A stretch of 64,000 bases of DNA from Lysobacter sp. (GTDB lineage: Bacteria; Pseudomonadota; Gammaproteobacteria; Xanthomonadales; Xanthomonadaceae): NCBI GenBank assembly GCA_013141175.1, contig JABFRN010000001.1, forward strand, positions 1,751,444-1,815,443. Reading direction: 5' to 3'. Made by a program: the position numbers and the translations under genes. Below, one piece after another: positions 20,936-60,148 of the stretch (positions within the stretch are counted from its first letter, which is position 1; the number at the start of each line of letters is the position of its first letter). The notes below the pieces were generated by a model. It was not told the DNA's origin and did not search any database. It was given only the letters and a program-made list of their open reading frames with translations.

Positions 20936-21601
20936 TTATGCGCGACGCGATTTTGTGGAAGGGGTTTCGGCCCCGATCGCATCCGGGGCTGAAGCCCCTC
21001 CCGCAACAGCCCGCCAGGCCAGCGTCGCCAGATACCCCGGTACCGGCGACCACGCATCGAGTCGCCAATCGTTCGTGGCGCCCAGCGCCGGGTCGCAGCC
21101 GGCCAGTTGCGGCGCAGCCTCGTTGTCGTCGAGAACGAAGCGCAGTTTCTCCAGCCCGAACGACAGGCCGCGACCGTGCGCCTTCAGCAGCGCCTCCTTC
21201 GCGCACCACAATCGGGTGAAGGCGTGCTGCAGGTGCGCGGGGTCGTCGGCCAGCGTCGTCAGCCACGCGGTTTCCTCCGGCGCGAAGAACCGCCTCGCCA
21301 GCGCCAGCGCTTTCGGGCGAGGCCGCAGCAGTTCGATGTCGATACCGACCCGGCCGTCGTCGACGCAGGCGGCGATCAGCCAGTCGCCGCTGTGGCTCCA
21401 GTTGAGGTCCACGTGATGGCCGCCGCCGTCCAGATGCGGTCGGCCGTAGCCATCGCGGGTCAGCGCCAACGCGTGCGCTGGTAGATTCCACAGCGCGCCG
21501 AGCCATGCGCGTACCGGTGGTTCGGCGCGGTCGCCGCGACGATACGGCCACCATGCGCATTGCACGGGGCCGAAAGTTGCGGTGTTCGCCGATCGATTCA
21601 A
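20936..21601 (-). CDS. 4'-phosphopantetheinyl transferase, Sfp type
   Basis: The 221-residue enzyme would transfer phosphopantetheine from CoA to the serine of carrier proteins. Motifs are [12 protein letters not shown] (residues 67-78), the Mg-binding VGIDIE (Asp88, Glu90) and [12 protein letters not shown] (132-143). It is the expected activator of the aryl-polyene acyl carrier protein at 47.9 kb and is divergent from an acyl-AMP ligase 62 bp away. The last 20 or so residues are encoded by a dispersed inverted repeat, so the original protein was probably shorter. Confidence 0.92.
20957..21002. repeat. Inverted repeat inside the 3' end of the phosphopantetheinyl transferase gene
   Basis: Arms GGAAGGGGTTTCGGCCCCG (20957-20975) and CGGGGCTGAAGCCCCTCCC (20984-21002) pair with few mismatches around an 8-bp centre. 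The core AGGGGCTTCAGCCCC belongs to the same style of self-folding repeat as the GTAGGAGCGGC elements. On the minus strand it codes for the tail [15 protein letters not shown]. Confidence 0.8.
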
Positions 21602-21663
21602 GGGTCGTACGGTTTGAGGGCGGTTGGGCCGCCAGCGTAAGCTAAGCCCGAAGCCGGGACACG

Positions 21664-23140: not shown

Positions 23141-23542
23141 ATGACAGGCGCAGGCGGCACTCCCGGCGGTGTGGGGCAGTTCTTCATCGGTCTGATGTGC
23201 GCGGTGGCCGGCGGCTGGTTGCTGACCAACCAGGTCCAGGTCACCTCCGGCGGCTTCTGGAGTTTTTACGGCGTCAGCAGCTTCGGCCTGTCGCTGATTC
23301 CGTTCCTCGTCGGCACCGGCATGATCTTCTTCAACGGCAAGTCGATACTCGGCTGGCTGCTGCTGGCGGCGGGCATCACCATCATCATCGTCGGCGTACT
23401 CGCCAACCTGCGCATCTATTTCCAGCCCACCAGCCTGTTCAATACGCTGATGATGCTCGGGCTGCTGGCCGGCGGTATCGGCGCGATGGCGGCGGCGCTG
23501 CGGGTCAAGCCGACGCCGGAGAAATCGAAGAGTGAGACATAG
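23141..23542 (+). CDS. Small inner-membrane protein of unknown function
   Basis: The 133-residue protein has four hydrophobic stretches (VGQFFIGLMCAVAGGWLL, LSLIPFLVGTGMIFF, ILGWLLLAAGITIIIVGVLA and TLMMLGLLAGGIGAMAAAL) and a short charged tail with RVKPTPEKSK. A GAGG Shine-Dalgarno match precedes the ATG. It follows the AMP-ligase gene by 61 bp on the same strand. I do not recognise a family beyond small membrane proteins. Confidence 0.75.
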   Translation: MTGAGGTPGGVGQFFIGLMCAVAGGWLLTNQVQVTSGGFWSFYGVSSFGLSLIPFLVGTGMIFFNGKSILGWLLLAAGITIIIVGVLANLRIYFQPTSLFNTLMMLGLLAGGIGAMAAALRVKPTPEKSKSET

Positions 23543-46501: not shown

Positions 46502-47524
46502 TCAAGCATGGACGCCGTCGATCTCCACCGCCAGCTCGCGGCGGCAGATCGCGGCGTGCAGCAGGATGCGCGGGACCGAGTTGCCGAAGCGGGCGTCCAG
46601 GGCCTGCGCCACCACCGGCAGGTCCTCGGCGTCGCGCACGTAGACCTTCAGCCGGGTGCCGGTGCCGAACCCCGCCGGCAGCAGCGGCTGGTGGCGGCGC
46701 GCTTCGGCCAGCAGCGCATCGAAGTTGGCGAAGGTCTCGCCGATCTGGCCGAGCAGTTCGCCCACGTGCAGCGACGCGTGGCCGACCACGCTGGCGGTGC
46801 CGGAGAGCAGCAGCGGCATCCGGCTGTCCGGCGGCGGCAGCATCGCGCGGGCGAAGCTCGGCGACTGCGGGCCGTACTGGCGCGGGTAGCGGTAGGCACT
46901 GACCTGGCGCGGATTCTCCACCGGCGTGCCGCCACGGTCCGCCGACAGCCAGTAGACCTGCAGGGTGCGCTGGCCGTCGCAGCGGCCGATCGCGGTCGCT
47001 GCCGGCAGTTCGATGGTGTCGAACCGGCCGAGCCCGCGGGCGCGGCCGACGCAGAACTGGCGGTAGCGCTCGGCGTCGCCAACGCCCTGGGTGATCGCGT
47101 CGAGGTAGTTCCACACCCGCAGCAGATGCGGCGTACGGCTGCCGGAGACGAAGCCGACCAGCTGCGCGTAGGCGCGCTCGGCGGCCTCGCAGATATCGCT
47201 GTGGTCGGGGTGTTCGCCCGGAGGTTCGTCGATCTCGATCACGCCGAAGGTCAGCTGGCCGTCGCTGGACCAGCGGATCTGGCCGGTCTGCGCGTCGCCT
47301 TGGGTGCCGTAGTCGACCGGGCCGGCGCTGCGCCAATGCTCGAACGGGGCGGTGCCGTAGGGCTGCAGCGGAATGCGCAGATAGCGCGGGTCGTCGCAGT
47401 GCGGGGCATCGTTGCCGAAGCCGAAGACCGCCAGGGTGTCGGCGGAGAGCAGGGCTTCGGGGGTGCCCGCCTGCACGTAATCGACGGAAAGCGCCGCGCC
47501 GGGCCGGGTCATCGGCCGGCTCAT
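46502..47524 (-). CDS. xanB2: Chorismatase/hydroxybenzoate synthase, XanB2 type
   Basis: The 340-residue protein fits the FkbO/Hyg5/XanB2 family, built from two RidA-like halves. Visible traits are TFGVIEIDEPPGEHP, YPRQYGPQSPSFARAMLP, SGTASVVGHASLHVG and the RidA-like end LKVYVRDAEDLPVV ... LHAAICRRELAVEIDGVHA. XanB2 converts chorismate to 3- and 4-hydroxybenzoate, which feed xanthomonadin and ubiquinone (established for Xanthomonas). It is divergent from the acyl carrier protein gene, at the left edge of the pigment locus. ATG 47524 is chosen; 47512 is an in-frame alternative. Confidence 0.88.
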   Translation of the reverse strand: MSRPMTRPGAALSVDYVQAGTPEALLSADTLAVFGFGNDAPHCDDPRYLRIPLQPYGTAPFEHWRSAGPVDYGTQGDAQTGQIRWSSDGQLTFGVIEIDEPPGEHPDHSDICEAAERAYAQLVGFVSGSRTPHLLRVWNYLDAITQGVGDAERYRQFCVGRARGLGRFDTIELPAATAIGRCDGQRTLQVYWLSADRGGTPVENPRQVSAYRYPRQYGPQSPSFARAMLPPPDSRMPLLLSGTASVVGHASLHVGELLGQIGETFANFDALLAEARRHQPLLPAGFGTGTRLKVYVRDAEDLPVVAQALDARFGNSVPRILLHAAICRRELAVEIDGVHA

Positions 47525-47873
47525 CGCGAACGCATCCGCGAAGCGGTGGAAGACAGCGCCGCACGGGCGGTTCCGACCTGAACCATGGAAGTGTCGCGCG
47601 CCGTCCTGGGCCGGGTCGATCCGGGAGGTTCCATTCCCGTGCGTGTCGCGTCGATTCGGACCGTCATGCTCTTCTTGTTGCAGTCTGAGACTGGCATCAT
47701 ACCGCGCGGCGCGATGCCGCCGCCCGGCCTTGCCGGTCGGCGACCCGGGCCCGGTATGCCCTCCCCTCGGACCGACCGGCGCCAGCGTGGTCGGCGGGCG
47801 CCTGATGACGTCGTGCAGCCGCCGCTTGCGGTCGCTTCGCGCGGCGTGTCCCTTTCTCTCTGGATGGTTTGCC
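47525..47873. promoter_or_regulatory. 349-bp divergent control region of the pigment locus
   Basis: This gap lies between the leftward chorismatase and the rightward acyl carrier protein gene, so it must hold promoters for both arms. No gene is supported. TTGTTG (about 47677) followed 17 bp later by CATACC is a weak sigma-70-like match in the rightward direction. GCGACCCGGGCCCGG and GGTCGGCGGGCGCC stretches form GC-rich dyads without a clear factor assignment. Confidence 0.45.
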
Positions 47874-48143
47874 ATGTCTGCACTGACTCCCGCCGAACTC
47901 GCATTGGCGGAATTGCTGGTCGAGAGCCTGAATCTGGACGGCGTTGTCGCCGCCGATATCGACCCCGATGCGCCGCTGTTCGGCGCCGGCCTCGGCCTGG
48001 ACTCGATCGACGCGCTCGAACTGTCGCTGGCGATCAGCAAGCGCTACGGCTTCCAGCTGCGTTCGGACAACGACGAGAACCGCCGCATCTTCGGTTCCCT
48101 GCGCGCGCTGTCGGCGCATGTCGAACAGCACAAGACGGTGTGA
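47874..48143 (+). CDS. Acyl carrier protein of the aryl-polyene locus
   Basis: The 89-residue protein has the carrier-protein fold with the phosphopantetheine Ser44 in GLGLDSIDALEL. The preceding acidic helix (ESLNLDGVVAADIDPDAPLF) fits ACPs of aryl-polyene loci. It would carry the growing chain and is the expected target of the phosphopantetheinyl transferase at 20.9 kb. Many aryl-polyene loci have two ACPs; only one is seen here. Its stop overlaps the next start (GTGA). Confidence 0.92.
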   Translation: MSALTPAELALAELLVESLNLDGVVAADIDPDAPLFGAGLGLDSIDALELSLAISKRYGFQLRSDNDENRRIFGSLRALSAHVEQHKTV

Positions 48144-48826
48144 CCGCCGCACTGCGGCTGTTGCTGCTGATGGCGTACCTGCCGTTGGCCCATTTCGCGG
48201 GCACCCGCCACTCGCCGACGCTGGCGGTGCTCGCGCTGGGCGATCTCGCGCTGCTGGTCCTGATCGAAGCCCTGCTGCGTCGGCGTCTGTCCGCATGGCT
48301 GGCGTTGGCCGCGAGCGTCGTGGCGCTGGTCCTGCTTGCGCGCACGCCTTACGCGCTGACGCCGTTGCTGCTGGTGCCATCGGTGTTCACGGCGATGATC
48401 GGCGGGTGGTTCGCGCGCAGCCTGCGCGCCGGCCGCGAGCCGCTGATCGCGAAAGTCGTAGGCGCGCTGTATGCGCAGGCCGGCATGCCGCTGACGCCGC
48501 GACACCGCAGCTACACCCGCCAGCTGACCCTGGCCTGGGCGCTGCTGCTGGCCGCGATGACACTGCTGAATCTCGCGCTCGCGTTGATCGCGGTGCCGGA
48601 CGGCGTACTGGCGCAGTTCGGGATCGTCGCGCCGGTCACCGTCACCGGTGCGCAATGGTCGTGGATCGCGAACATCGCCAACTACGGGGTGATGGGCGGC
48701 TTCATGCTGGTCGAATTCCAGTTGCGCAAGCGTGTGTTCCCGGTGCGACCGTATCGCAACGCCTTCGATTTCGGGCGCCGCATGGCCGCGCTCGGCCCGG
48801 CGTTCTGGCGCGACTTTTTCCACTGA
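48140..48826 (+). CDS. Aryl-polyene locus membrane protein (COG4648/ApeG-like)
   Basis: A GTG at 48140, overlapping the ACP stop, opens a 228-residue protein with about five hydrophobic helices in the first half, and TLLNLALALIAVP and YGVMGGFMLVEF later. It ends in FRMAALGPAFWRDFFH-like residues. The membrane family with FPVRPYRNAFDF occurs in aryl-polyene and xanthomonadin loci between the ACP and dehydratase genes. Its role is unknown; assembly of the synthase at the membrane is a guess. Confidence 0.8.
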   Translation: MTAALRLLLLMAYLPLAHFAGTRHSPTLAVLALGDLALLVLIEALLRRRLSAWLALAASVVALVLLARTPYALTPLLLVPSVFTAMIGGWFARSLRAGREPLIAKVVGALYAQAGMPLTPRHRSYTRQLTLAWALLLAAMTLLNLALALIAVPDGVLAQFGIVAPVTVTGAQWSWIANIANYGVMGGFMLVEFQLRKRVFPVRPYRNAFDFGRRMAALGPAFWRDFFH

Positions 48827-48833
48827 CCGTGCC

Positions 48834-49163
48834 ATGACCGACTTCACCATCCCCGCCGATCATCCCTGCCTGCCCGGCCATTTCCCCGGCCAGCCGATCG
48901 TGCCCGGCGTGGTGGTGCTGGATCGCGTGCTGGCGGCGATCGAAGCCCGGTACGGCGCGCTCGGTGCGCTGCGGATGCCGCAGGTCAAATTCCTGCAGCC
49001 GCTGTTGCCGGAACAGACGGCACGGATCGAACTGCAGCCCGCGGCCGATGCGCCCGATGCACCGCCGCGCTGGCGTTTCCGGGTGCTGCGCGACGACATC
49101 CTGATCGCCAGCGGCGAGGTGCATCCAGAATGCCGCGCCAGCGCCGAGGCGCCAGCCGGATGA
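48834..49163 (+). CDS. Hot-dog 3-hydroxyacyl-ACP dehydratase (ApeI-like)
   Basis: The 109-residue hot-dog protein has DHPCLPGHFPGQPIVPGVVV, the FabA/FabZ-type catalytic stretch with His17, and an Asp shortly after in LDRVLAAIEARYG, at the place where FabA has its catalytic Asp. ApeI and ApeP act together as a dehydratase complex in aryl-polyene synthesis (established for Xenorhabdus). Its ATG is 5 bp after the stop of the membrane gene. Confidence 0.88.
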   Translation: MTDFTIPADHPCLPGHFPGQPIVPGVVVLDRVLAAIEARYGALGALRMPQVKFLQPLLPEQTARIELQPAADAPDAPPRWRFRVLRDDILIASGEVHPECRASAEAPAG

Positions 49164-49173
49164 GCGACGCACG

Positions 49174-50148
49174 ATGAGTACCGAGTGGAAACAACGACCG
49201 GAAGGCGGCGGTCGCTTCGCGCTGTGGCTGATCCGTACCATCGGCCGTTACGGCGGGCGCGGGATCGCGCGCCTGCTGTTGTTTCCGATCACCCTGTATT
49301 TCCTGATCCGCCGTGGGCCGGAACGCGCGGCGTCGTGCGCATGGCTGTCGTGCGCGCTGGGTCGCCGCGCGACGCTGTGGGATGCGGCGAAACATGTGCA
49401 TACCTTCGCGGCGACCATCCTCGACCGGGTGTTCCTGCTCGGCGGGAATACGCGCCGTTTCGATGTGACCGTGCGTGGCCTGGAGGATCTGCACGCGCAT
49501 CTGGACCAGGGTCGCGGCATGCTGCTGTTCGGTTCGCACCTGGGCAGCTTCGAAGTGCTGCGGGTGCTGTCGCGGCAGCGGCCGGACTACACCATCCGCG
49601 TGGTCCTGGACAAAGCCCACAACCGGGCCCTGACCGAACTGCTGGACGCGCTGAATCCCGAGATCGCGGCGACCGTGATCGACGCTGGGCAGGACGGTCC
49701 GGGGCTGATGCTGGAGATCCAGCAAGCGGTGCAGGGCGGCGCGATGGTCGCACTGCTGATCGACCGCGCGCATCCCGGCGGGCAGACCGCGATGGCGCCG
49801 TTCTTCGGCCGGGAGGCGCCGTTCCCGATGGCGCCCTGGCAGATCGCCGCCGCGCTGAAGGCGCCGGTCACGCTGGCCTTCGGCCTGTATCGTGGCGGCA
49901 AGCGTTACGACCTGATCTTCGAGAACTTCAGCGACGGCATCGACATCCCGCGAGCACAGCGCAAGGAGGCGGTCGCGGCCTTGATCCGCCGTTACGCCGC
50001 GCGGCTGGAGGCCGTGGCGCGTCAGGCGCCGTACAACTGGTTCAATTTCTACGATTTCTGGGGCGTCGAGGCGCCGCGTACCGATGACGAACGTGCTGCC
50101 CGAGACCATGCTGCCGACAAGCCTGCTGCGCCGAATCGTTCCGTCTAG
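49174..50148 (+). CDS. LpxL/HtrB-family acyltransferase
   Basis: The 324-residue inner-membrane protein has an N-terminal helix (GIARLLLFPITLYFLI) and the acyltransferase motif HLGSFE (His122, Glu127: HX4E). LIDRAHPGGQTAMAPFFGREAPFP is the matching substrate-pocket region. Such enzymes move acyl chains from ACP to a lipid or sugar. In aryl-polyene loci they are thought to attach the polyene to a lipid anchor. The start is 10 bp after the dehydratase stop. Confidence 0.88.
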   Translation: MSTEWKQRPEGGGRFALWLIRTIGRYGGRGIARLLLFPITLYFLIRRGPERAASCAWLSCALGRRATLWDAAKHVHTFAATILDRVFLLGGNTRRFDVTVRGLEDLHAHLDQGRGMLLFGSHLGSFEVLRVLSRQRPDYTIRVVLDKAHNRALTELLDALNPEIAATVIDAGQDGPGLMLEIQQAVQGGAMVALLIDRAHPGGQTAMAPFFGREAPFPMAPWQIAAALKAPVTLAFGLYRGGKRYDLIFENFSDGIDIPRAQRKEAVAALIRRYAARLEAVARQAPYNWFNFYDFWGVEAPRTDDERAARDHAADKPAAPNRSV

Positions 50149-50779
50149 CCTGGCAGCGTCGCTCATCCTGTGCGCCGCGCCGGTCCGCGCGCAAAGCGTG
50201 GACAGCGGCTGGATCCTGCAGGCATTGGCGCGACCCGCGCCGATGCGCACCGCATTCGTCGAAGTGCGCGATTCGCCGCTGCTCAAACAGCCGCTGCGCC
50301 TGTCGGGCGAATACCGTCGCCCGAACAACGACACCCTGGTGCGCGAAGTGCGCGCGCCCTATCGCGAAACCACCACGCTCGTCTCCTCGAAATCCGGCCC
50401 AGGCGAAGCCCGCATCGCCCGCGACGGCAAACCGACACGCATGTTCCCGCTCTCGCGGGTGCCGGAACTCGCCGGCCTGCAGAACAGTTTCGGCGCGCTG
50501 CTCGCCGGCGACCGCGCGCTGGTCGAACGCGTCTACCGCATCGGCGCGCAGGGCGACCGCACGCGCTGGACATTGACCCTCGTACCCAAAGACAAAGCGC
50601 TGGCCGCGCGCGTCCGCGACATCGTGCTGTACGGCCAGGGCGCGGAACTGCGCTGCATCGAAACCCGCCCGGTCAAGGGCGAACTGCAGCGCACGCTGCT
50701 GGCCAGCGCGGCGCTGGCGGTGAAGGCCAAGACCGATGCGGCAGCGATACAGACCTTGTGCCGGCATGGTGTGAAGTGA
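50084..50779 (+). CDS. LolA-like periplasmic lipid-carrier protein
   Basis: The 231-residue protein has a signal sequence (about residues 9-36, ending PVRAQS) and a LolA/LolB-like beta-fold (LRLSGEYRRPNNDTLVREVRAPY, GDRTRWTLTLVPKD). It overlaps the end of the acyltransferase gene by 65 bp; a second ATG at 50108 reduces this to 41 bp and puts the signal peptide at the very start. COG2834-type proteins beside MMPL exporters are thought to pass the lipid across the periplasm. Confidence 0.82.
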   Translation: MTNVLPETMLPTSLLRRIVPSSLAASLILCAAPVRAQSVDSGWILQALARPAPMRTAFVEVRDSPLLKQPLRLSGEYRRPNNDTLVREVRAPYRETTTLVSSKSGPGEARIARDGKPTRMFPLSRVPELAGLQNSFGALLAGDRALVERVYRIGAQGDRTRWTLTLVPKDKALAARVRDIVLYGQGAELRCIETRPVKGELQRTLLASAALAVKAKTDAAAIQTLCRHGVK

Positions 50780-50800
50780 TCGGCATCGCGCCCAAGCGTT

Positions 50801-50888
50801 GTCATCCCGAGCATGGCGAGGGACCTGTTGTTGCTTTTTCGCGACGACAAGAGCAACAACAGGTCCCTCGCCTTCGGCTCGGGATGAC
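50801..50888. repeat. Long inverted repeat between the LolA-like and exporter genes
   Basis: Arms at 50801-50835 and 50852-50888 (GTCATCCCGAGC.. with ..GCTCGGGATGAC) pair nearly perfectly over about 35 bp around a short centre. AGCAACAACAGGTCCCTCGC lies in the stem. The element ends 18 bp before the exporter ATG, inside what should be one operon. Confidence 0.9.
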
Positions 50889-50906
50889 AGCAAAAGAAAC
50901 GCTCGC

Positions 50907-53258
50907 ATGACCGCCACCCGCCGCACCGCGCTCGCGCTCGCCTGGCTGATCGTATTGATCGTTGCCGGATTCGTCATCGGCGAGCGCCTGCAGGTCAGCG
51001 GCGACCTGCGCAAATTCATGCCCTCCGCCGAAACCCCGGCGCAGAGACTGCTGCTGGACGAACTGGGCGAAGGCCCGGGCTCGCGGCTGCTGCTGATGTC
51101 GCTGTCCGGCGCCGGGGCCGAAGCGCTCGCCGCGCAGTCGCAACGCATCGCGCAGACCCTGGCCGCCGACGATCGCTTCGGCCTTGTCGCCAACGGCGGC
51201 GAACAGGCCCTGGATGCGATTCCCGAACGCCTCCGCCCGTATCGCTATCTGTTGTCGAACACGCTCGATGCGCAGCCGCTCGATGAAGCCTATCTGCGCG
51301 ACGAACTCGACGCCCGCGTGCAGGATCTGGGCTCGCCGGCGGCGGCGCTGATCGAACCGCTGCTGCCGTCCGATCCCACGCTGGAAACGCTGCGCATCGC
51401 CGAGGCGCTGCAGCCGGCGAACGCGCCGCAGCGCCTGCATGGCGTGTGGTTCGACGAGTCGGGGCGGGAAGCGCTGCTCGCGATCGAAACCAGGGCGGCG
51501 GGCTTCGATCCGAGCGGCCAACAGCTGGCGGTGGACGCGATCCGGAACGCCTTCGACGATGCGCGCGGCGACAGCGGGACCACGATGATCCTGACCGGCC
51601 CCGGCGCGTTTTCGGTGGAGATCGGCGGTCGCACCCAGCGCGAATCGGCATGGATCGGCATGATCGACACCATCGGCCTGATCCTGCTGCTGCTGATCGC
51701 GTACCGAAGCTGGCGCACGCCCTTGTTCGGCGTGCTGCCGCTCGCCAGCGCGGGCCTTGCCGGCCTGGGCGCGGTTGCATGGCTGTTCGACGGTGTGCAC
51801 GGCATTACCGTCGCGTTCGGCTTCACCCTGATCGGCGTGGTCCAGGACTATCCGATCCATCTCTTCAGCCACCAGCGCGCCGGCCTCTCGCCGTGGGCGA
51901 ACGCGCGCGCGATCTGGCCCACGCTCGCCACCGGCGTCGCATCGACGTGCATCGCCTATGTGACCTTCCTGTTCTCCGGCGTCGATGGCCTGCAGCAACT
52001 CGCGGTGTTCACCATCGCCGGGCTCGGTGTCGCCGCCTTGACCACGCGCCTGCTGCTGCCGGCGTTGATCGATCCCGCGCCGCGGGGCTTCAAGAATGGC
52101 GATATCGCCGCATCGCCGCGCCTCGCGACGCTCTGGAAAGCGGTCGCGCGGGTGCCGCGACCGCGCGCCCGGCAGCTCGCGTCGCTGGCCGCGCTGTCCA
52201 TCGCCATCGTCGCGTTCGCACCCGGCGCGTTCTGGCAGAACGATCTGTCGAAACTCACGCCGGTGCCGGCGGACGCGCTCGCGCAGGACGCGCATCTGCG
52301 CGACGCGCTGGGCGCGCCGGATGTGCGCTATCTGCTGGCGGTGCGCGGTGCGGACACCGAGCAGGCGCTGCAGCGCGTCGAAGCCCTGCATCCGAAGCTC
52401 GATGCATTGATCGTACGCAAGGCCATCGCCGGCTACGACAGCGCGGCGCGCGTGCTGCCCAGCGCCGCCACCCAGCGCGCGCGCCAGGCGAAACTGCCGG
52501 TGCCCGGAACGCTGCGCGCATCGCTCGATGCCGCCGTGGCGGCCACGCCGTTCCGCAGCGATGCATTCGAGGATTTCGTCGCCGATATCGAACGCGCGCG
52601 CATCGCCGCGCCGCTCGCCGCACGCGATCTCGCGGGCACGCCGCTGGCGACGCGCATCGGCGGCCTGCTGCTGGAAAACAGCGGCCACGCGACGGCGCTG
52701 GTTTCGATGACGGGCCTGTCCGACCCGGCGACGGTCGCGCGTGCGACCGCTGCGCCAGGCGTCGAGCTGCTCGATCTGAAGACCGCCTCCGAATCGCTGG
52801 TCGAAGCCTATCGCGAGCGTGTATTGCTGGCGCTCGCGGTCGCCGCACTGCTGCTGTCGATCACGGTCTGGCTCGCGCTGCGCTCGCCGCATCGCGCCTT
52901 GCGCGTGCTGCTGCCGATGGCGCTGACCACGCTGATCGTCCTAGCCGTGCTGCGCGCGTGCGGCGTCGAACTGACCCTGTTCCATCTGGTCGCGCTGATC
53001 CTCGCCGCAGGGCTCGGTCTGGACTACGCATTGTTCTTCGAGCATGCCGGCGACGACTACGCAGACCAGCTGCGCACGCTGCACGCGCTGATCGTCTGCA
53101 GCCTGATGACGCTGCTGGTGTTCTTCCTGCTGGCGCTGTCGTCGATCCCGGTGCTGCGCGCGATCGGAGTCACCGTCACCCTGGGCGTGATCGGCAACTT
53201 CGTGCTGGCGCTGTTGATCGCGCGGCATGCCGCCGCTCCCACCGGTGGGGTTTCGTGA
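50907..53258 (+). CDS. MMPL/RND-superfamily exporter of the aryl-polyene locus
   Basis: The 783-residue protein has two repeats, each with one helix, a large periplasmic loop and five helices, the MMPL layout. Visible helix blocks are TALALAWLIVLIVAGFVIGE at the N terminus, GMIDTIGLILLLLIAYRSW, FGFTLIGVVQDYPIHLFSH (with the family Asp-Tyr) and, in the second half, LILAAGLGLDYALFFEH. COG4258 exporters move lipids or polyene lipids toward the outer membrane. The start MTATRR at 50907 is used; a longer frame would run into the repeat. Confidence 0.9.
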   Translation: MTATRRTALALAWLIVLIVAGFVIGERLQVSGDLRKFMPSAETPAQRLLLDELGEGPGSRLLLMSLSGAGAEALAAQSQRIAQTLAADDRFGLVANGGEQALDAIPERLRPYRYLLSNTLDAQPLDEAYLRDELDARVQDLGSPAAALIEPLLPSDPTLETLRIAEALQPANAPQRLHGVWFDESGREALLAIETRAAGFDPSGQQLAVDAIRNAFDDARGDSGTTMILTGPGAFSVEIGGRTQRESAWIGMIDTIGLILLLLIAYRSWRTPLFGVLPLASAGLAGLGAVAWLFDGVHGITVAFGFTLIGVVQDYPIHLFSHQRAGLSPWANARAIWPTLATGVASTCIAYVTFLFSGVDGLQQLAVFTIAGLGVAALTTRLLLPALIDPAPRGFKNGDIAASPRLATLWKAVARVPRPRARQLASLAALSIAIVAFAPGAFWQNDLSKLTPVPADALAQDAHLRDALGAPDVRYLLAVRGADTEQALQRVEALHPKLDALIVRKAIAGYDSAARVLPSAATQRARQAKLPVPGTLRASLDAAVAATPFRSDAFEDFVADIERARIAAPLAARDLAGTPLATRIGGLLLENSGHATALVSMTGLSDPATVARATAAPGVELLDLKTASESLVEAYRERVLLALAVAALLLSITVWLALRSPHRALRVLLPMALTTLIVLAVLRACGVELTLFHLVALILAAGLGLDYALFFEHAGDDYADQLRTLHALIVCSLMTLLVFFLLALSSIPVLRAIGVTVTLGVIGNFVLALLIARHAAAPTGGVS

Positions 53259-53683
53259 TCGCACGCCACGCCATCGAAGCGATGATCCCGCACAAAGGCG
53301 GCATGTGCCTGTGGGACGAAGTGATCGACTGGGACGCGCAGCGCATCCGCCTGCGCACCCGCAGCCATCGCGACGCGGCGAACCCGCTGCGCCACGACGA
53401 ACGCTTGCGCGCGGTGCATCTGTGCGAATACGGCGCGCAGGCGATGGCGGTGCACGGTGGCCTGCGCGGCGCGGCGGCCGGCGGCGAGCCCAAGGTCGGT
53501 TTTCTGGTCGCGCTGCGCAATGTCGAACTGCGCGTCGCGCGCATCGACGATCTGACCGATGCGCTGGAATGCGAGGCGGAGCTGCTGGCGGAAAGCGAAG
53601 CGAGTCAGCAATATGCGTTCTGCATCGTGCATGCGGGGCAGACCGTCGCGGTAGGCCGTGCGGCGGTGATGTTGCAGGTCTGA
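53255..53683 (+). CDS. Hot-dog dehydratase partner (ApeP-like)
   Basis: A GTG at 53255 overlaps the exporter stop and opens a 142-residue hot-dog protein. IPHKGGMCLWDEVIDWD is the ApeP-type opening and VHLCEYGAQAMAVHGGL the central helix with a candidate catalytic Glu. It lacks the HFPG motif of the ApeI-like protein, which fits a two-subunit dehydratase. REP elements follow the stop. Confidence 0.85.
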   Translation: MIARHAIEAMIPHKGGMCLWDEVIDWDAQRIRLRTRSHRDAANPLRHDERLRAVHLCEYGAQAMAVHGGLRGAAAGGEPKVGFLVALRNVELRVARIDDLTDALECEAELLAESEASQQYAFCIVHAGQTVAVGRAAVMLQV

Positions 53684-53690
53684 ACCCCCG

Positions 53691-53765
53691 TGTAGGAGCG
53701 GCGCAAGCCGCGATTGGACGTGGCAAGTCTTGCTGCAATCAATCGCGGCTTGCGCCGCTCCTACA
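53691..53765. repeat. Inverted repeat, GTAGGAGCGGCGCAAGCC family
   Basis: Perfect 25-bp arms (53691-53715 and 53741-53765) around 25 bp. It is nearly identical to the element at 9583-9692. It sits between the ApeP-like and FabG-like genes in the same transcription direction. Confidence 0.92.
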
Positions 53766-53792
53766 GAAACTCGAAGAAGAGGAGAGTAACGA

Positions 53793-54527
53793 ATGTCGAA
53801 CACACCACCGCGTCGGGCACTCGTCACCGGCGGCAGCGGCGATCTCGGCGGCGCGATCTGCCGGCGGCTCGCGGCCGACGGCGCGCACGTCATCGTGCAT
53901 GCGAACGGCAATCCCGCGCGCGCCGAAGCGGTGCGTGACGTCATCCTCGCGAGCGGCGGTTCCGCGCAGGCGGTGGTGTTCGATGTCGCCGACGGCGACG
54001 CCACGCGCGCGGCGCTGAACGCGCTGCTCGAAGCCGGTCCGATCCAGATCGTGGTCAACAACGCCGGCATCCACGACGACGCGCCGATGGCGGGCATGCG
54101 CGAAGAGCAGTGGAAGCGCGTGATCGACGTGTCGCTGCACGGCTTCTTCCATGTCACCCAGCCGCTGCTGCTGCCGATGGCGCGCATGCGCTGGGGCCGC
54201 ATCGTCAGCATCTCGTCGGTGGCCGGCGTGCTCGGCAATCGCGGCCAGACCAATTACGCGGCAGCGAAAGCCGCGCTGCACGGGGCGACCAAATCGCTGG
54301 CCCGCGAAATGGCCAGTCGCGGCATCACCGCGAATGTGGTGGCGCCCGGCGTGATCGCCGGCGAGATGGCGCAACACGCGTTTCCGCCCGAACAGATCAA
54401 GCAGATGGTGCCCGCCGGCCGCGCCGGCACGCCGGAGGAAATCGCCGCGCTCGTGGGATTCCTGTGCGGCGGCGATGCCGGCTACATCAACGGCCAGGTG
54501 ATCGGGATCGATGGTGGGATGAGCTGA
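53793..54527 (+). CDS. 3-oxoacyl-ACP reductase, FabG-like (ApeQ-like)
   Basis: The 244-residue short-chain dehydrogenase has the NADP motif TGGSGDLGGA (12-21), NNAGI and the catalytic Ser..Tyr..Lys in SISSVAGVLGNRGQTNYAAAKAA. GAGGAGA precedes the ATG. It would reduce the keto group in each polyene cycle, between the ketosynthase and dehydratase steps. It is the last clear biosynthetic gene of the rightward arm. Confidence 0.92.
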   Translation: MSNTPPRRALVTGGSGDLGGAICRRLAADGAHVIVHANGNPARAEAVRDVILASGGSAQAVVFDVADGDATRAALNALLEAGPIQIVVNNAGIHDDAPMAGMREEQWKRVIDVSLHGFFHVTQPLLLPMARMRWGRIVSISSVAGVLGNRGQTNYAAAKAALHGATKSLAREMASRGITANVVAPGVIAGEMAQHAFPPEQIKQMVPAGRAGTPEEIAALVGFLCGGDAGYINGQVIGIDGGMS

Positions 54528-54580
54528 GGCGCGGTGCGCTGGATCCAGTGCGGTGAAATCCCCGGGCTGGCCGAACCGGG

Positions 54581-54630
54581 CGACTCGAATCCAGACTGCT
54601 CGAATCCAGACGACTCGAATCCAGACGGCA
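54581..54630. repeat. Second 15-bp tandem repeat
   Basis: Three to four units of 15 bp with the core TCGAATCCAGAC (for example GACTGCTCGAATCCA, GACGACTCGAATCCA) follow the FabG gene. Read on the minus strand the unit is TGGATTCGAGxxGTC, close to the TGGATCAAG core of the array at 11409-11468. Confidence 0.82.
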
Positions 54631-54712
54631 CGAAATTCAACGGTTCAAGACATAAACAACGATGTTTCCATTCCGGCCGCGCATGCGGTCGCCACTCAAG
54701 AGGTGAAAAGCA

Positions 54713-55309
54713 ATGCGCATTCAAACAGTGTTCGCCGCCGTCCTTCTGCTGGTCGCGGTACCGTTCGTCGATGCCGCGGAATTCAAGAAACCCGCAGAAG
54801 ACGCGAAGAACCCCGCGCCGACCGTCGCACTGGACACCTATCAGCGCTTCGAGATGGCGCCGGTCGCGATGGATGCGCCGTATGCCGGCCAGAAAGGCAA
54901 CGAAGTCGCGCGCGAATACCTGCAGGGCAATCTCGATGAACGCGTCGGTGCCGTGCTCAAGGCATGGAACGACAAACCGGCAGGCGATACGCCACGGACG
55001 TTGAAGATCGAACCGAAGATGACGCATGTCCGCTTCATTTCCGGCGGCAAGCGTTTCTTCGCGGGCGGCTTCGCCGGAAAGTCATGGGTCTATGTCACCA
55101 CGAAACTGACCGATACCCAGACCGGCGCCGTCGTGGGCGAGCCCGGCTTCTATCAGCAGGCCAACGCGATCGGCGCCGCCTGGACCTTCGGCACCACCGA
55201 CAAGACCATGCTGATCCGCATTTCCAGCATGCTCCGTGCGTATCTGCAAGAGAACTACGACAAGACGGTCGAAGTTCCGGTGATGGTCGCGCCTGAAGTC
55301 GAAGACTGA
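54713..55309 (+). CDS. Exported protein of unknown function in the pigment locus (DUF4410-like?)
   Basis: The 198-residue protein starts after GAGGTG and has a signal peptide (MRIQTVFAAVLLLVAVPFVD, cut after DAA). The mature domain (TLKIEPKMTHVRFISGGKRFF, AWTFGTTDKTMLIRISSMLRAYLQENYD) resembles periplasmic DUF4410-type proteins, but this is not certain. It lies between the two converging arms of the pigment locus, 185 bp after the FabG gene, and may simply be a neighbour. Confidence 0.65.
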   Translation: MRIQTVFAAVLLLVAVPFVDAAEFKKPAEDAKNPAPTVALDTYQRFEMAPVAMDAPYAGQKGNEVAREYLQGNLDERVGAVLKAWNDKPAGDTPRTLKIEPKMTHVRFISGGKRFFAGGFAGKSWVYVTTKLTDTQTGAVVGEPGFYQQANAIGAAWTFGTTDKTMLIRISSMLRAYLQENYDKTVEVPVMVAPEVED

Positions 55310-55380
55310 CATCGTTTCCGCAGGCAGTCGCCACGAGGGCCGCAGACGCGGCCCTCGTCGTGTTCGTCGTCGAGACCGCG

Positions 55381-57072
55381 TTACGCCGCAGTGGCGTACC
55401 AGTTCGACGCCAGCAACGGCTCGACCGTGACGCCTTGCATCAGAGCGGCCATGCCGCAGTCGTCGATATCGGGATGCGATGCGCGCGCGCGCATCCATAT
55501 CTCGGATGCCAGCCATTCCATGCGAGAAACGTTGTCGCGGATCCGCTGCTCGAAGGCGGCATTGTCGAGCGCATCGTGCAGTGCGCGGTTCATCTCGTGG
55601 AACCAGTCGATGCTGAACTGGTCGAGCAGGCGTCCGTCGAGGGTCGCGGGATCCGGCGGATCCGCGGCGCGGTTGCGCTCGCCCCAGGTCCGCAGCAGCG
55701 ACTGCATCGCCAGGTTCAGATCGCGCCCGCGCTCGAACTCCGGACGCAGCCGTCCAAGCAGCGCGATCTCGGTCAGCTTGTCGCCGCAGAACAGCGGCGC
55801 CAGCAGCGACCAGTAGTAGGTGTAGTCCCAGATCACCTTCACCGGCATCACCTGCGCGTCGCCGAACAGCGGGTACTGGCCGCGATACAGCGTCATCGTG
55901 TTCTCGAAAAACCCGAAGTGCAGCTGCTGGTAGATGTCGACGTACGCGCCGAAGGACCTGCCGCCGCGGTCCTTGTCGATCAGATCGCAGATCAGGGTGT
56001 TGGAGATGGCGATGAAATCGCTGCCCGGCGAATAGAACGGGTCGGGAAACAGGCCGGCCTCACCGGTCAGCGCCCAGCGATCGTTGCTGAACAGCTGTTT
56101 GCAGCCGTGCGAGAAATGGCGCAGGAACAGGAAATCCTGCAGCCGATGCTCCGGCGCGTCGAGCGCTTCGGCGATCCTCGGCTGGTGCTCGCGCAGCCAG
56201 GCCATGGCTTTTTCGTGGGTGTTCATCGTCTCCAGCGGATGCATCGCCGCGTCGCAGACGATGCCCAGCGAGTGCGCGCCGGACGACAGCGGAATCAGCC
56301 AGAACCAGTAACCGGGGCCGCACATGTGGTTGGTCGAGCGCCAGCGGTCCGGTGGCGTGCAGCGCGCCAGCCAGTCGGCATCGTCCGACCACAGTTTCGG
56401 ATCGACGATGCCGTCGACGCGCCACCACACCGCATTGGCATCGTGGATTTCCGGCGCGGCCAGGTCGAATTTGCGTTTGAGCAGGCCGGCGCGACCGCTG
56501 GCATCGACGACCCAGCGCGCCGCTGCGGTGCGGGTGTCGCCATCGCGCTCGAAGGTGATCGCATGCGGCTCGCCGCTGTCGCTCATGGCCAGACCGCGCA
56601 CGGCCGTGCCGTCGTGGAAGCGCACGCCGAGCCGTTGCGCCTCCTCGCCGAGGAAATTCTCGAAACGGCCGCGATCGATCTGCCAAGAGGGCGTCGGCAG
56701 GAGCCGGCTGACCCCGAGTTCGGTGCAGCGGTCGATGTCGCGACGTCCTTCGCTGAAGAAGAAGCGGAAACCGAATTTGCGGATGTGTTCCTTGTCGAGG
56801 TGTTCGCGCAGGCCGAGCACGTTGGCGAAGTAGTGCGCGCCGATCTCGACCGTGGATTCGCCGACCTTGAACGCCGCTTCCGGCACCGGATGCGCGCGGC
56901 GTTCGAGCACGACGACGTCGATGTCCGGATCGCGACGCTTGAGCTGGATCGCGAGCGTGAGTCCGGCCAGACCGCCGCCGAGGACGACAACATCGTGGAT
57001 AACGGCACCGTGGATAACGACATCGTGCGTGACGACATCGGGCGAGGCGTTCGCGCTGCGGCTGGAAGGCAT
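55381..57072 (-). CDS. Flavin-dependent halogenase-like FAD oxidoreductase
   Basis: The 563-residue protein has an FAD-binding GGGLAG at 32-37, then AAFKVGEST with Lys69 (the position of the halogenase catalytic Lys), WFWLIP at 256-261 (the WxWxIP halogenase motif) and FPDPFYSPGSDF (FAD/halide region). All hallmarks of tryptophan-halogenase-type enzymes are therefore visible. Xanthomonadins are brominated, so halogenation of the aryl head is likely but not shown. The N-terminal 30 residues (HDVVIHGAVIHDVVV) are repetitive in DNA, so the true start may be further in. Confidence 0.85.
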   Translation of the reverse strand: MPSSRSANASPDVVTHDVVIHGAVIHDVVVLGGGLAGLTLAIQLKRRDPDIDVVVLERRAHPVPEAAFKVGESTVEIGAHYFANVLGLREHLDKEHIRKFGFRFFFSEGRRDIDRCTELGVSRLLPTPSWQIDRGRFENFLGEEAQRLGVRFHDGTAVRGLAMSDSGEPHAITFERDGDTRTAAARWVVDASGRAGLLKRKFDLAAPEIHDANAVWWRVDGIVDPKLWSDDADWLARCTPPDRWRSTNHMCGPGYWFWLIPLSSGAHSLGIVCDAAMHPLETMNTHEKAMAWLREHQPRIAEALDAPEHRLQDFLFLRHFSHGCKQLFSNDRWALTGEAGLFPDPFYSPGSDFIAISNTLICDLIDKDRGGRSFGAYVDIYQQLHFGFFENTMTLYRGQYPLFGDAQVMPVKVIWDYTYYWSLLAPLFCGDKLTEIALLGRLRPEFERGRDLNLAMQSLLRTWGERNRAADPPDPATLDGRLLDQFSIDWFHEMNRALHDALDNAAFEQRIRDNVSRMEWLASEIWMRARASHPDIDDCGMAALMQGVTVEPLLASNWYATAA

Positions 57073-57077
57073 GTCGG

Positions 57078-57902
57078 TCACTCGCGGTGGGCGGTGGTGA
57101 ATTCGCCGCTGGGGTCGTCGATCATCGGCGGATTGGCGCGCGCGCGCCGGTATTCGCGGATCACGTGGCCATGGCGCCAGACCTGCGCCACGACATGCGA
57201 CGTGATCGCGTACAGGTCGCGGAACAGGCGGAAATGACTCTTGCGGAAGGCCTGCGGTGCGTCCGCAGTCTGGTAACGGGTTTCGATCGGAACGCCGACC
57301 ACGCGCGCGCCTGCGCGGCGTGCGGCCGAGATCAGCAGTTGCGCTTCGAAGACGAAACCTTCGCCGGGAACATCGTGCAGGGTGAAGACGGATGCCGGAT
57401 ACAGGCGCTGGCCGCTCTGCGTGTCGCGGACCCGGAAGCCGCAGCCCCAGGCGATGCCCCAGTCGCCGAAATCGTTGCCGATCCGGCGGTACAGCGGCTG
57501 CGAAGCGCGCTTGCGCAGGCGCGCGCCGATGATCACGCAGCCGGGATGACGGTTGGCGGCGGCGATCAGTCGCGGGATGTCGCTGGCCGCATGCTGGCCA
57601 TCGCCGTCGATGGTGGTGACCGCGGCCATTCCCAGCCGTTCCGCTTCGCGGAAGCCGTCGCGCAGGCTCGCGCCCTTGCCCATGCGTTGCGGGTGGCGCA
57701 GCAGGGTGATCGGCAGGTCGGCGATCTTCGCGGCGGTGTCGTCGTCGGAGCCATCGTCGATCACGATCACGCGGTCGCATTCGCCCAGCGCGCCCTCCAC
57801 CACTTCGCGGATGCGCAGCGCTTCGTTGAGCGCGGGAATCACCACCGCCACATTGGTTCGATCGAAGACGACAGTCTTGTCCAGCATCGCGGCCTCATCC
57901 AT
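57078..57902 (-). CDS. GT2 glycosyltransferase of the pigment locus
   Basis: The 274-residue enzyme has NVAVVIPALNEALRI, VIVIDDGSDDDT and the metal-binding TIDGDGQHAASD, the DPM/ALG5-like GT2 core, with IGARLRKRASQPLYRRIGND and DTQSGQRLYP further on. No membrane helices are seen. Its ATG overlaps the end of the ketosynthase-like gene by 8 bp. It could add a sugar to the polyene or its lipid anchor, as GT2 genes in related loci are thought to do. Confidence 0.87.
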   Translation of the reverse strand: MDEAAMLDKTVVFDRTNVAVVIPALNEALRIREVVEGALGECDRVIVIDDGSDDDTAAKIADLPITLLRHPQRMGKGASLRDGFREAERLGMAAVTTIDGDGQHAASDIPRLIAAANRHPGCVIIGARLRKRASQPLYRRIGNDFGDWGIAWGCGFRVRDTQSGQRLYPASVFTLHDVPGEGFVFEAQLLISAARRAGARVVGVPIETRYQTADAPQAFRKSHFRLFRDLYAITSHVVAQVWRHGHVIREYRRARANPPMIDDPSGEFTTAHRE

Positions 57903-58686
57903 AAGCGATCTCCACCGACATCACGCGCCCGGGGCCGGCATGCAGCGTCGCCTGTGCGGTGCCTGCGGCCAGCGCATCGAACAGCGGCAGCATCGGCGCC
58001 ATCGGATTGGTGCCGGCATGGCGGCCGAGCGTGCCCGGCGTATCGGCCTCGCCATCGCCCAGTCGCACCGAGATGCACGGGCCGTTGCCGCTGCGCGACA
58101 ACAGCAGCGCGCCGCCGAGCAGTCCGCTGCAGTCGTGCACCGATCGCAGCGGGCCGGTCGCACCGGTGTCGTAACCGACCAGCAGCACCGCTTCGGCGCC
58201 GGCCTCGAGTTGCATCAGCGCTTCGAGCAGGCCTTCGGCGAAACTGGCGTCGTAGGCGCTGATCGCGGTCGCGGCCTGCATGCAGTGCGCGCCGATCGTC
58301 CAGTAGCCGGCGGCGGCGTTGTGCACCGAGTTGTGGAACCTGGTCGGCGAGATCGCGGAGGGATCGCTGGCGAGCATGGCGCACATGTAATCGGTGATCG
58401 ACAGATCGCCGTGGGTCGAGGTGAACACCGACGGCAGCGTCGCCGGGTCGCGACCTGCGTCCGTGCATGCGGCCAGCGCAACGTCGAGCGCGACCGCCAC
58501 CGATTCCGGCGCGCGTCGGCGTTCGTTCGGCGGCAGCAGCTGCGGCGCGGGTTTGGTGGCGACGCCTTCGGGCATCGTACCGGTAGCGACGAAATCGCGC
58601 GCGTGCTGCCACGACGGCAGGCCGTTGTTCCAGTAGCCGACGCTTTCGATGGTGGCGGTGAGCGGGTTCACGTCAGCGCTCTCCAT
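57895..58686 (-). CDS. Ketosynthase-like chain-length-factor homologue (ApeC-like)
   Basis: The 263-residue protein is a short ketosynthase-like protein (beta-ketoacyl synthase-like N-terminal domain). FTSTHGDLSITDYMCAML and HNSVHNAAAGYWTIG are the family hallmarks. It has no active-site Cys-Ser-Ser and no second His, so it is unlikely to condense by itself; ApeC acts as a chain-length factor for the ApeO ketosynthase. The start at 58686 overlaps the upstream gene by 14 bp; a GTG at 58671 just after its stop is an alternative. Confidence 0.85.
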   Translation of the reverse strand: MESADVNPLTATIESVGYWNNGLPSWQHARDFVATGTMPEGVATKPAPQLLPPNERRRAPESVAVALDVALAACTDAGRDPATLPSVFTSTHGDLSITDYMCAMLASDPSAISPTRFHNSVHNAAAGYWTIGAHCMQAATAISAYDASFAEGLLEALMQLEAGAEAVLLVGYDTGATGPLRSVHDCSGLLGGALLLSRSGNGPCISVRLGDGEADTPGTLGRHAGTNPMAPMLPLFDALAAGTAQATLHAGPGRVMSVEIAYG

Positions 58687-59902
58687 GCGATCCGTGCCCG
58701 AACACCAGCGACGCATTGTTGCCGCCGAAGCCGAAGGAATTGTTCATCGCGTAGCGGATGTCGCGTTCGACGTCGTCGAAGCGGATCTGCGGACCGCAGG
58801 CGGGATCGCGCTGCGGTTCGCCGGCGTGGAGCATGCCGGGCAGCAGCCCGCTTTCCAATGCGATCAGCGCGAACACCGATTCGACGATGCCGGCCGCGCC
58901 GAGCGTGTGCCCGACCCAGCCTTTGGTGGAACTGGCATGCAGCGCGTCGCCGAACAGGCTGCGCACCGCGAGCGCTTCGGCGCTGTCGTTCGCGGGCGTG
59001 GCGGTGCCGTGCAGATTCAGATAACCGACATCGTCGGCCAGGATGCCCGCGCGCGCGATCGCATCGACCATCGCCAGCCGTGCGCCGAGGCCTTCCGGAT
59101 GCGGCGACGACATGTGGTGCGCATCGCTGCTTTCGCCGTAACCGCACAGTCGCGGCGCAGGGTCGTGCGCATCGTCGATGCGTTCGAGCAGCGCATAGCC
59201 GCCGGCTTCGCCCAGCGACAGACCGTCGCGACGCGCATCGAACGGCAGACAGGGATGCCTGGACACCAGTCCAAGCGCGTTGAAACCGAACAGCACGCTG
59301 CCGCAGAGCGTATCGACGCCGCCGACCAGCGCGGCGTCGACCACGCCGGCATGGATCAGCCGCGCCGCCTGCGCGAAGACTTTCGCGCTCGACGAGCATG
59401 CCGTGGCCACGGTCACACACGGTCCACGCAGCCCGGTCGCGCGCTGCAGGAAATGACCCAGCGAATGCGGCGTATGCAGCAGCGGTTCGCGCAGATCGAT
59501 CGGAAAGGCGTCGCCATCGAGACGCGTATAGGCTTCCTCGCTGGCGCCGATGCTCGACGTCGATGTGCCGATGACGATCGCGACGCGTTCGGCGCCGTGG
59601 CGCGTGCGCAACGCGGCGATGCCGTCGAGGATGCCGTCCTGCCGCAATGCCAGCCAGGCGAGGCGATGGTTGCGGCAGTCGAAGGGTGCAAGCTCCGACG
59701 GCAGGACCACGTCTTCCACGCCATCGACGCGACCGATCCAGGTGTCGAGCCGCGCGTCGGCGCTGGCGCCATCGCCGAAATCGTTGCGGCGCAGGCCGCT
59801 GCGCCGCGCATGCAGCGCTTCGGCCTGGGCCTCGCGGCCGTGGCCCAGCGCAGTGGTGGCGGTGTAGGCGCGGATCGCGACCGGCGGCATCCGGGGCGGC
59901 AT
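58673..59902 (-). CDS. 3-oxoacyl-ACP synthase (FabF/ApeO-like)
   Basis: The 409-residue ketosynthase has the full catalytic triad: Cys169 in VTVATACSSSAK, His298 in LNLHGTATPAND and His332 in STKGWVGHTLGAAG. NNSFGFGGNNASLVFG closes the fold. With the ApeC-like protein it would extend the chain. The first gene of the leftward arm. ATG 59902 was chosen because the fold starts within 20 residues; GTG 59950 and ATG 59890 are alternatives. Confidence 0.9.
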   Translation of the reverse strand: MPPRMPPVAIRAYTATTALGHGREAQAEALHARRSGLRRNDFGDGASADARLDTWIGRVDGVEDVVLPSELAPFDCRNHRLAWLALRQDGILDGIAALRTRHGAERVAIVIGTSTSSIGASEEAYTRLDGDAFPIDLREPLLHTPHSLGHFLQRATGLRGPCVTVATACSSSAKVFAQAARLIHAGVVDAALVGGVDTLCGSVLFGFNALGLVSRHPCLPFDARRDGLSLGEAGGYALLERIDDAHDPAPRLCGYGESSDAHHMSSPHPEGLGARLAMVDAIARAGILADDVGYLNLHGTATPANDSAEALAVRSLFGDALHASSTKGWVGHTLGAAGIVESVFALIALESGLLPGMLHAGEPQRDPACGPQIRFDDVERDIRYAMNNSFGFGGNNASLVFGHGSHGER

Positions 59903-60148
59903 GGTTCGAGCCGGCGTCGTTGGAGAAGGAGATATCGTTGCGGAGGACACCGCGTCGCTCGGAATCGGAACAGCCCCGGATTATAGCGATCCACCCGTAA
60001 TCCCGGCGCCGGGCCGTTCAGGCAACAGCATCCCCGATGGTCCGGGCGTGCGGAATCCACCTCCGCAGCCCCCCGGCGCGGTCGACGTCAGGGGCGATCC
60101 GGTTCCCGGCATTAGAATGCAGGCTCCGCCGATCACCGGATCTCCGCC

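Follow-up and report, generated by a model that had tools for sequence, protein, structure and literature searches.

A xanthomonadin-type aryl-polyene locus in Lysobacter sp. with its very probable starter ligase beside a phosphopantetheinyl transferase 23 kb away

Gene content of the locus

The window, a 64,000-base stretch of DNA from Lysobacter sp. (positions 1,751,444–1,815,443 of a single-contig genome of 4,155,120 bases), contains a pigment block at 46502–59950 and, 23 kb from it, a divergently transcribed gene pair at 20936–23079. By its gene content, the block is a xanthomonadin-type aryl-polyene (APE) locus; the pair consists of a phosphopantetheinyl transferase (PPTase) and an AMP-dependent aryl:acyl carrier protein (ACP) ligase that very probably serves the block. 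Genes were called by using codon usage, with the starts of the LolA-like and PPTase genes taken from lists of open reading frames (ORFs), and identities were assigned with Pfam and NCBIfam models. The gene list of an earlier, sequence-only reading was recovered in this way, save that its second hot-dog protein rests on its place. That reading had also put the AMP ligase and the PPTase outside the block, and rightly so: within the window, AMP-binding and ACPS domains were found in the divergent pair alone, and the whole genome has 23 AMP-binding and three ACPS-domain places. Judged by the ligase, the closest named relatives are one at 90% (L016) and then others at 75–77%, comprising metagenome-assembled genomes (MAGs) and isolates labelled Lysobacterales, Lysobacteraceae or Lysobacter sp.

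Three transcription blocks make up the locus, and the ORFs are open across it: the chorismatase gene on the minus strand, a plus-strand arm from the ACP gene through 55309, and a minus-strand arm encoding a ketosynthase (KS), its chain-length-factor-like (CLF-like) partner, a GT2 glycosyltransferase and a halogenase candidate. The two arms converge near 55.3 kb. The chorismatase (XanB2/FkbO/Hyg5 type; 46502–47512) matched PF21168 at 3e-36 and the FkbO structure 4bps at 1.3e-35; against the FkbO/Hyg5 model TIGR04444 it scored 180.9, under the cut-off of 325. It is the presumed source of 3- or 4-hydroxybenzoic acid (3-HBA/4-HBA). Between chorismatase and ACP genes the window has a 361-base spacer only (47513–47873); four relatives (G058, G012, G072 and G105) encode at this place an additional FAD-dependent protein, 24–25% identical to the halogenase.

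The plus-strand arm begins with a XanC-like ACP (47874–48143; PF00550 1.3e-8; NF006617 132 bits, cut-off 70) bearing the serine motif DSIDALEL, followed by a membrane protein (48140–48826) whose place is kept in relatives. The latter matched nothing in Pfam, NCBIfam or PHROGs, and the label "COG4648-like" given to it in the earlier reading could not be confirmed. Next come a hot-dog dehydratase of ApeI/FabA-like type (48834–49163; PF21089 1.6e-6; PF07977 5.5e-5; ApeI-like 5.5e-4, under that model's cut-off), an LpxL-like acyltransferase (49174–50148; PF03279 2.2e-11), a LolA-like carrier protein (LolA_3; 50084–50779; PF19574 5.8e-84) and an MMPL-family exporter (50907–53258; PF03176 7.1e-12). 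The protein at 53255–53683 has no Pfam match; its place and similarity are kept in relatives, and it is named solely from its place as the second hot-dog protein, in the dehydratase position and ApeP-like. A FabG-type ketoreductase (KR; 53793–54527; NF004200 333.9 bits, cut-off 273) precedes the end of the arm, a secreted-looking protein (54713–55309) that was without a match in Pfam and PHROGs searches and has a counterpart in one of the 12 cluster-bearing relatives compared (G012, 66%).

On the converging minus-strand arm lie the FAD-dependent halogenase, a bromination candidate (55381–57081; PF04820 1.1e-13 on a longer ORF; CmlS 3i3l 9.5e-20), the GT2 glycosyltransferase (57078–57902; PF00535 2.9e-20), the short CLF-like partner of the KS (57895–58686; PF13723 4e-28, above the cut-off, on an ORF to 58716; solved chain 6qsp_B 3.8e-12) and the KS itself (58673–59950; NF006618 487.8 bits, cut-off 407). 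Because the alignment of the halogenase candidate to CmlS covers the WFWLIP block, a halogenated, possibly brominated, product of the locus is plausible.

The block thus combines a XanB2-type chorismatase, a KS with a short CLF-like partner, a halogenase and a GT2 with a single ACP, a KR, two dehydratases (the second by place), an LpxL-like acyltransferase, a LolA-like protein and an MMPL exporter. A XanA2-type ligase is present in the genome, 23 kb from the block, and no AMP-binding domain was found across 46.5–60 kb, so the layout is not that of Xanthomonas, with the ligase inside the cluster. The outside ligase therefore counts against a Xanthomonas layout, not against a xanthomonadin-type pathway.

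The distant ligase and its tie to the pathway

The ligase gene (21694–23079, plus strand; PF00501 1.5e-19 on an ORF from 21664) encodes a predicted XanA2/Xcc4015/ArcT-type starter ligase of 461 amino acids, and its end lies 23.4 kb from the chorismatase gene. This start is supported by the ATG at 21694, which is invariant across the window and six relatives. The translation contains TSGSTGTPK, MFGATE, GRQSDLLEIAGKR and NDTGK, which we take to be the expected adenylation blocks. When the genome was searched with this ligase, it gave a single match at E <= 1e-30, without a second copy. In the divergent PPTase–ligase spacer, a 12-bp element, CAGCGTAAGCTA (21633–21644, plus strand), is identical in all seven aligned sequences (the window and the six relatives) and is possibly a −10 region; a scan of the spacer for the sigma-70 consensus gave no match. 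Downstream, between ligase and xth, a small membrane-protein-like gene (23171–23542) was recognised by similarity in a few of the closest relatives only.

Ligase and CLF co-occur across the family. By using E < 1e-50 as the threshold for a strong CLF match, and with 22 weaker CLF matches and one ligase match (G195, 4.3e-33) set aside, 187 of 297 family genomes hold both genes, three the CLF alone, seven the ligase alone and 100 neither. The ligase is accordingly present in 187 of the 190 genomes with a strong CLF match, versus seven of the 107 without one; the three that have the CLF without the ligase (G030, G176 and G193) are 87, 85 and 81% complete. Three of the ligase-only genomes (G141, G198 and G205) are 99–100% complete.

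Because of this co-occurrence, and because its ortholog adjoins the chorismatase gene in the Xanthomonas group, the distant ligase very probably serves the pigment locus. Xcc4015, the published counterpart of the ligase, is described as essential for pigment in Xanthomonas; a literature search on XanA2 returned no paper.

Ligase address within the family

The named loci compared are the 80 of 258 most similar to the window's ligase, a choice that favours the window's own layout. The ligase adjoins the PPTase in 68 of them, two of which belong to L. enzymogenes ATCC 29487 (L072) and L. antibioticus (L089). In the other 12 it adjoins the chorismatase: two Xanthomonas, three Stenotrophomonas and six Pseudoxanthomonas loci and one MAG. 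Two of the Pseudoxanthomonas loci (sp. GM95, L069; P. spadix, L085) carry two tandem ligase-like matches beside the chorismatase.

An address census was drawn from the 189 family genomes for which a ligase place was listed. The ligase lies <=600 bp from the PPTase in at least 111 of them; in 40 it lies <=20 kb from the CLF without shown pairing (15 with and 25 without a listed PPTase place), and 38 fall in neither class (22 without a listed PPTase or CLF place, 16 neither paired nor shown near the CLF). Where paired genomes have the CLF on the same contig (62 among those listed), the two genes are <=62 kb apart in 52 (median 38.9 kb); in the remaining ten the distance, measured along the contig without correction for circularity, runs from 126 kb to 2.4 Mb. 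Close linkage of ligase and cluster is therefore usual but not needed. What separates ligase and cluster in eight paired genomes is backbone that can be matched to the window (xth, an operon, aroE, hemB); this stretch is shorter in G012, G082 and G072 and longer in others. One genome has a PPTase domain, the ligase and the CLF all within about 5 kb (G011:C16:95280-100170).

Since the arrangement recurs in relatives, the split is not chance; among family members other than the Xanthomonas group, the PPTase-paired layout is common. None of the titles and abstracts listed by the literature searches described a ligase beside the PPTase.

The PPTase beside the ligase

The Sfp/HetI-type 4′-phosphopantetheinyl transferase (20936–21601, minus strand; 211–221 amino acids depending on the start) matched PF01648 at 5.4e-20. 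Its match to the HetI model NF042922 (2.2e-18) is far under that model's cut-off; the match to the Sfp structure 1qr0 (1.2e-12) aligns the GIDIE and WCAKEALLK blocks. The genes identified around the pair include rsmG, xth, a ParA/ParB pair, hemB and aroE. In every one of the 23 family stretches examined (sets of 17/17 and 6/6, hand-chosen rather than random), the PPTase gene lies between rsmG and xth; five of these stretches come from genomes without a strong CLF match. Of the 68 PPTase-paired named loci, some of whose sequences end early, 64 show rsmG and 57 show xth. The rsmG neighbourhood was recognised in none of 14 PPTase stretches from outside the family.

Nor is the gene restricted to pathway-bearing genomes or loci, as a dedicated PPTase would be: a PPTase match is present in 186 of the 190 genomes with a strong CLF match and in 74 of the 107 without one (51 of them at E < 1e-30, including 45 that lack the ligase as well). 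An AcpS model gave no match over its cut-off in 60 family genomes, with two sub-threshold matches; in 14 control genomes it matched eight, five of them over the cut-off. The ACPS-domain model found at least one place in all 60 family genomes, exactly one in 40, two in 17 and three in 3. Canonical AcpS may thus be absent across the family, and Sfp/HetI-type enzymes may have taken over activation of the fatty-acid ACP.

Because the rsmG–xth place is kept with or without the cluster, because AcpS reaches its cut-off in 0/60 and because 40 of 60 genomes have a single PPTase-domain place, the gene at 20936–21601 is probably that of a general housekeeping PPTase rather than one that moved out of the cluster. 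The pigment ACP is probably among the substrates of this enzyme, and where it is the sole PPTase it should also serve the fatty-acid ACP. In X. campestris, the xanthomonadin ACP is activated by a Sfp-type PPTase whose gene lies outside the cluster, according to PMC9813960, which cites Chen et al. 2022. One of three reference lists titles that study with "fatty acid and xanthomonadin biosynthesis"; the other two title it as modifying acyl carrier proteins in Xanthomonas.

Ligase addresses outside the family and the order of events

Outside the family, 20 of 57 genomes with a CLF match were followed, and a ligase was found in all 20. It adjoins tsaC and topA in 11 of 11 genomes of family f12 and lies near topA in three of three of f2 (one of these with a recognised tsaC). 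Ligases within the cluster occur in f7 (two genomes), f9 (two) and one f3 genome; in the other f3 genome the ligase is elsewhere. At least three ligase addresses therefore exist.

On a 104-row ligase tree built by a quick method, the addresses require four changes versus a shuffled mean of 32.4. The family's 84 ligases form one group (support 100), and its 15 cluster-located ligases form a weakly supported group (81). The window's ligase and the ligases that the Xanthomonas group keeps in the cluster share a clade; in the window's own supported clade, all ten ligase rows are PPTase-paired. A concatenated cluster tree of 20 rows, built with care, nests four in-cluster genomes among PPTase-paired rows (84/83, 93/96), and a constraint holding the nine PPTase-paired rows together was not rejected (approximately unbiased (AU) test, 0.095). 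A quick ligase-only tree of the same 20 rows scatters the in-cluster rows; the backbone-gene tree separates both sets (100/100) and, being unrooted, cannot give direction.

A 37-row quick cluster tree, from which three long-branch outgroups had been dropped, again showed the Xanthomonas-type nesting, with G001 inside the Xanthomonas-type group; the ligase of G001 is not shown in the cluster, a stretch that ends at the contig end. That tree was not the best, because constraint searches on the larger set found higher-scoring ones, both when the PPTase-paired rows were held together as a clade (AU 0.65; 0.86 without the three poorly filled rows G054, G065 and G001, dropped from the later tests) and when the in-cluster rows were (AU 0.875). 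We placed the root by hand on f7/f9 or f12 rather than inferring it, and the forks of the tree leave the closest neighbouring family open. Derivation of the in-cluster state within the family, as read from the tree nesting, was not upheld by these values.

Because the ligase lies outside the cluster in all 14 f12 and f2 genomes that were examined, the Xanthomonas layout as the unaltered original is at least open to doubt. One path, which we offer tentatively and would not bet on, would start with the ligase in the cluster (as in the most distant families examined), pass through the topA–tsaC address seen in neighbouring families to a PPTase-paired family ancestor, and return it to the cluster only in Xanthomonas, Stenotrophomonas and Pseudoxanthomonas, so that the textbook Xanthomonas locus would be derived. 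If this is true, the divergent ligase–PPTase pairing would couple starter loading to the supply of holo-ACP.

Comparison with characterised pigment loci

The sequence-only reading had proposed comparing gene order with the Xanthomonas and Lysobacter loci. The Xanthomonas pig (xan) locus, represented by G058, whose ligase groups with that of Xanthomonas sp. F10, has the chorismatase, one ACP, the acyltransferase, LolA, MMPL, two dehydratases, KR, halogenase, GT2, CLF-like protein and KS in the same order. Its PPTase likewise lies outside the cluster, as is also published (PMC9813960). The differences are that the ligase adjoins the chorismatase there and the PPTase in the window, and that an added FAD-dependent protein stands between chorismatase and ACP there. 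The single ACP, which had been named as worth comparing with Xanthomonas, is not peculiar: one such ACP, XanC, is named in X. campestris (PMC9542644), and xanthomonadin clusters are described as lacking a second (PMC8253772).

The yellow-pigment locus of L. enzymogenes OH11 (ORF1–17) shares the chorismatase, ACP, acyltransferase, two dehydratases, KR, LolA-type carrier, CLF-like protein and KS, together with a glycosyltransferase resembling dolichyl-phosphate-mannose synthase (PMC3691225). It is described there as lacking a halogenase, which the window has, so halogenases are evidently not universal in xanthomonadin-type loci. The main text of that paper never uses the word "ligase", and ORF10 (555 bp) is called "acyl-CoA synthetase" once in its methods and a LolA-type carrier in a figure legend (PMC3691225). 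The former label looks like a slip.

Azoarcus provides a precedent for a xanthomonadin-type pathway that is split. To our knowledge, the APE clusters of E. coli and Xenorhabdus contain neither a halogenase nor a chorismatase. In Azoarcus sp. BH72, two unlinked arc loci, one holding the ligase ArcT, are both needed for the pigment arcuflavin; unlike the window's arrangement, these are two multi-gene loci with dialkylresorcinol genes, and a lone ligase beside a PPTase is not reported in that account (PMC3949708). The E. coli and Xenorhabdus clusters (ApeA–R) have related chemistry, with ApeH activating 4-HBA, and the E. coli cluster is also without a dedicated PPTase; they differ in having ApeH inside the cluster and two ACPs, as described in PMC8253772.

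Proposed pathway and alternative explanations

On the observed gene identities, co-occurrence and conserved addresses, we consider it highly probable that the block is a xanthomonadin-type locus whose ACP is loaded by the ligase at 21694–23079 and converted to its holo form by a probably general PPTase. The substrate, loading reaction, PPTase specificity and pigment structure would then be as follows. The chorismatase would convert chorismate into 3- or 4-hydroxybenzoate, which the ligase would adenylate and transfer to the holo-ACP (47874–48143), the PPTase (20936–21601) having modified this ACP and probably the fatty-acid ACP as well. Elongation by KS/CLF with the KR and two dehydratases would give the polyene, and the halogenase, GT2, acyltransferase, LolA-like protein and MMPL exporter would modify it and deliver it to the envelope, the last two assisting export after acyl transfer and the glycosyl step. 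The pathway is split because the ligase adjoins the PPTase instead of the chorismatase.

Several observations weigh against this interpretation. The ligase matches family models only in part, and its nearest solved relatives are weak. Seven genomes hold the ligase without a strong CLF match (G007, G014, G141, G160, G198, G200 and G205), four of them at least 91% complete (G141, G160, G198 and G205; G160 has two weak CLF pieces); recent loss of the cluster, or a ligase role outside the pathway, is possible in these. The 297 genomes are kin, so the p-value of the co-occurrence overstates independence. The single ACPS-domain place was demonstrated to be this PPTase in only 23 of the 40 genomes (15 coincide with a listed PPTase match, seven adjoin the ligase and G001 was identified by its rsmG–xth flanks). 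Finally, this genome has two PPTase-domain genes besides that of the pair: a further Sfp-type PPTase of 280 amino acids (G000:C1:3908626-3908949) and a third at 3182484, about 6–14 kb from nonribosomal peptide synthetase (NRPS) adenylation domains at 3168727–3176586; either might be the one that modifies the pigment ACP. The search for a better-paired ligase and PPTase elsewhere, which the earlier reading had named as grounds for refutation, thus turned up two PPTase candidates, one of them a few kb from NRPS domains, and no second match to the ligase at E <= 1e-30.

The divergent pair might instead be a self-contained loading module for some other carrier-protein pathway, such as a polyketide or NRPS pathway, the pigment using another ligase. 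Its distance of 23 kb from the block, the 22 other AMP-binding places in the genome and the seven ligase-only genomes would fit this idea, which is nevertheless distinctly unlikely: the ligase is in 187 of 190 strong-CLF genomes, the three misses being less than 90% complete, the Xanthomonas group and the four f7/f9 genomes examined have its ortholog within the cluster, and the genome offers no second match at E <= 1e-30. A pair dedicated to the pigment and displaced together, with a PPTase specific to this ACP, would account for the divergent orientation, the short shared spacer with its invariant 12-bp element and the close spacing in at least 111 of the 189 genomes. This too is improbable, given that the PPTase holds its rsmG–xth place without ligase or cluster, that AcpS exceeds its cut-off in 0/60 while 40/60 have a single ACPS-domain place, and that the Xanthomonas PPTase study is titled in the one reference list as concerning fatty acid as well as xanthomonadin biosynthesis, and in the other two as concerning acyl carrier proteins.

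Decay or recombination of a Xanthomonas-type cluster in this lineage alone can draw on the in-cluster ligase of the Xanthomonas group, and its prospects are very remote: the window's ORFs are open, all ten ligase rows of its clade are PPTase-paired, pairing extends to at least 111 of the 189 family genomes, and the ligase is outside the cluster in all 14 f12 and f2 genomes examined. The proposal that the two regions serve one pathway thus holds for the ligase, through its co-occurrence with the CLF and its ortholog beside the chorismatase in 12 named loci, and is not supported for the PPTase as a displaced loading enzyme, the rsmG place being kept with or without the cluster.

Conclusions

The variant concerns the gene address of a known pathway, and nothing suggests new chemistry; because many relatives share the layout, it is a genuine but modest variation. 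It is useful for annotation and knock-out design. A search confined to the block would call the pathway incomplete, with the missing starter enzyme standing at a predictable address, rsmG–PPTase–ligase, in many family members. Deleting ligase and PPTase together, as the sequence-only reading had proposed, would be an unclean pigment test because the PPTase is probably a housekeeping enzyme, so that a pigment gene is mixed with a possibly essential one. With a single pathway gene relocated while the rest stays clustered, the family offers a tractable case for asking what selects gene clustering.

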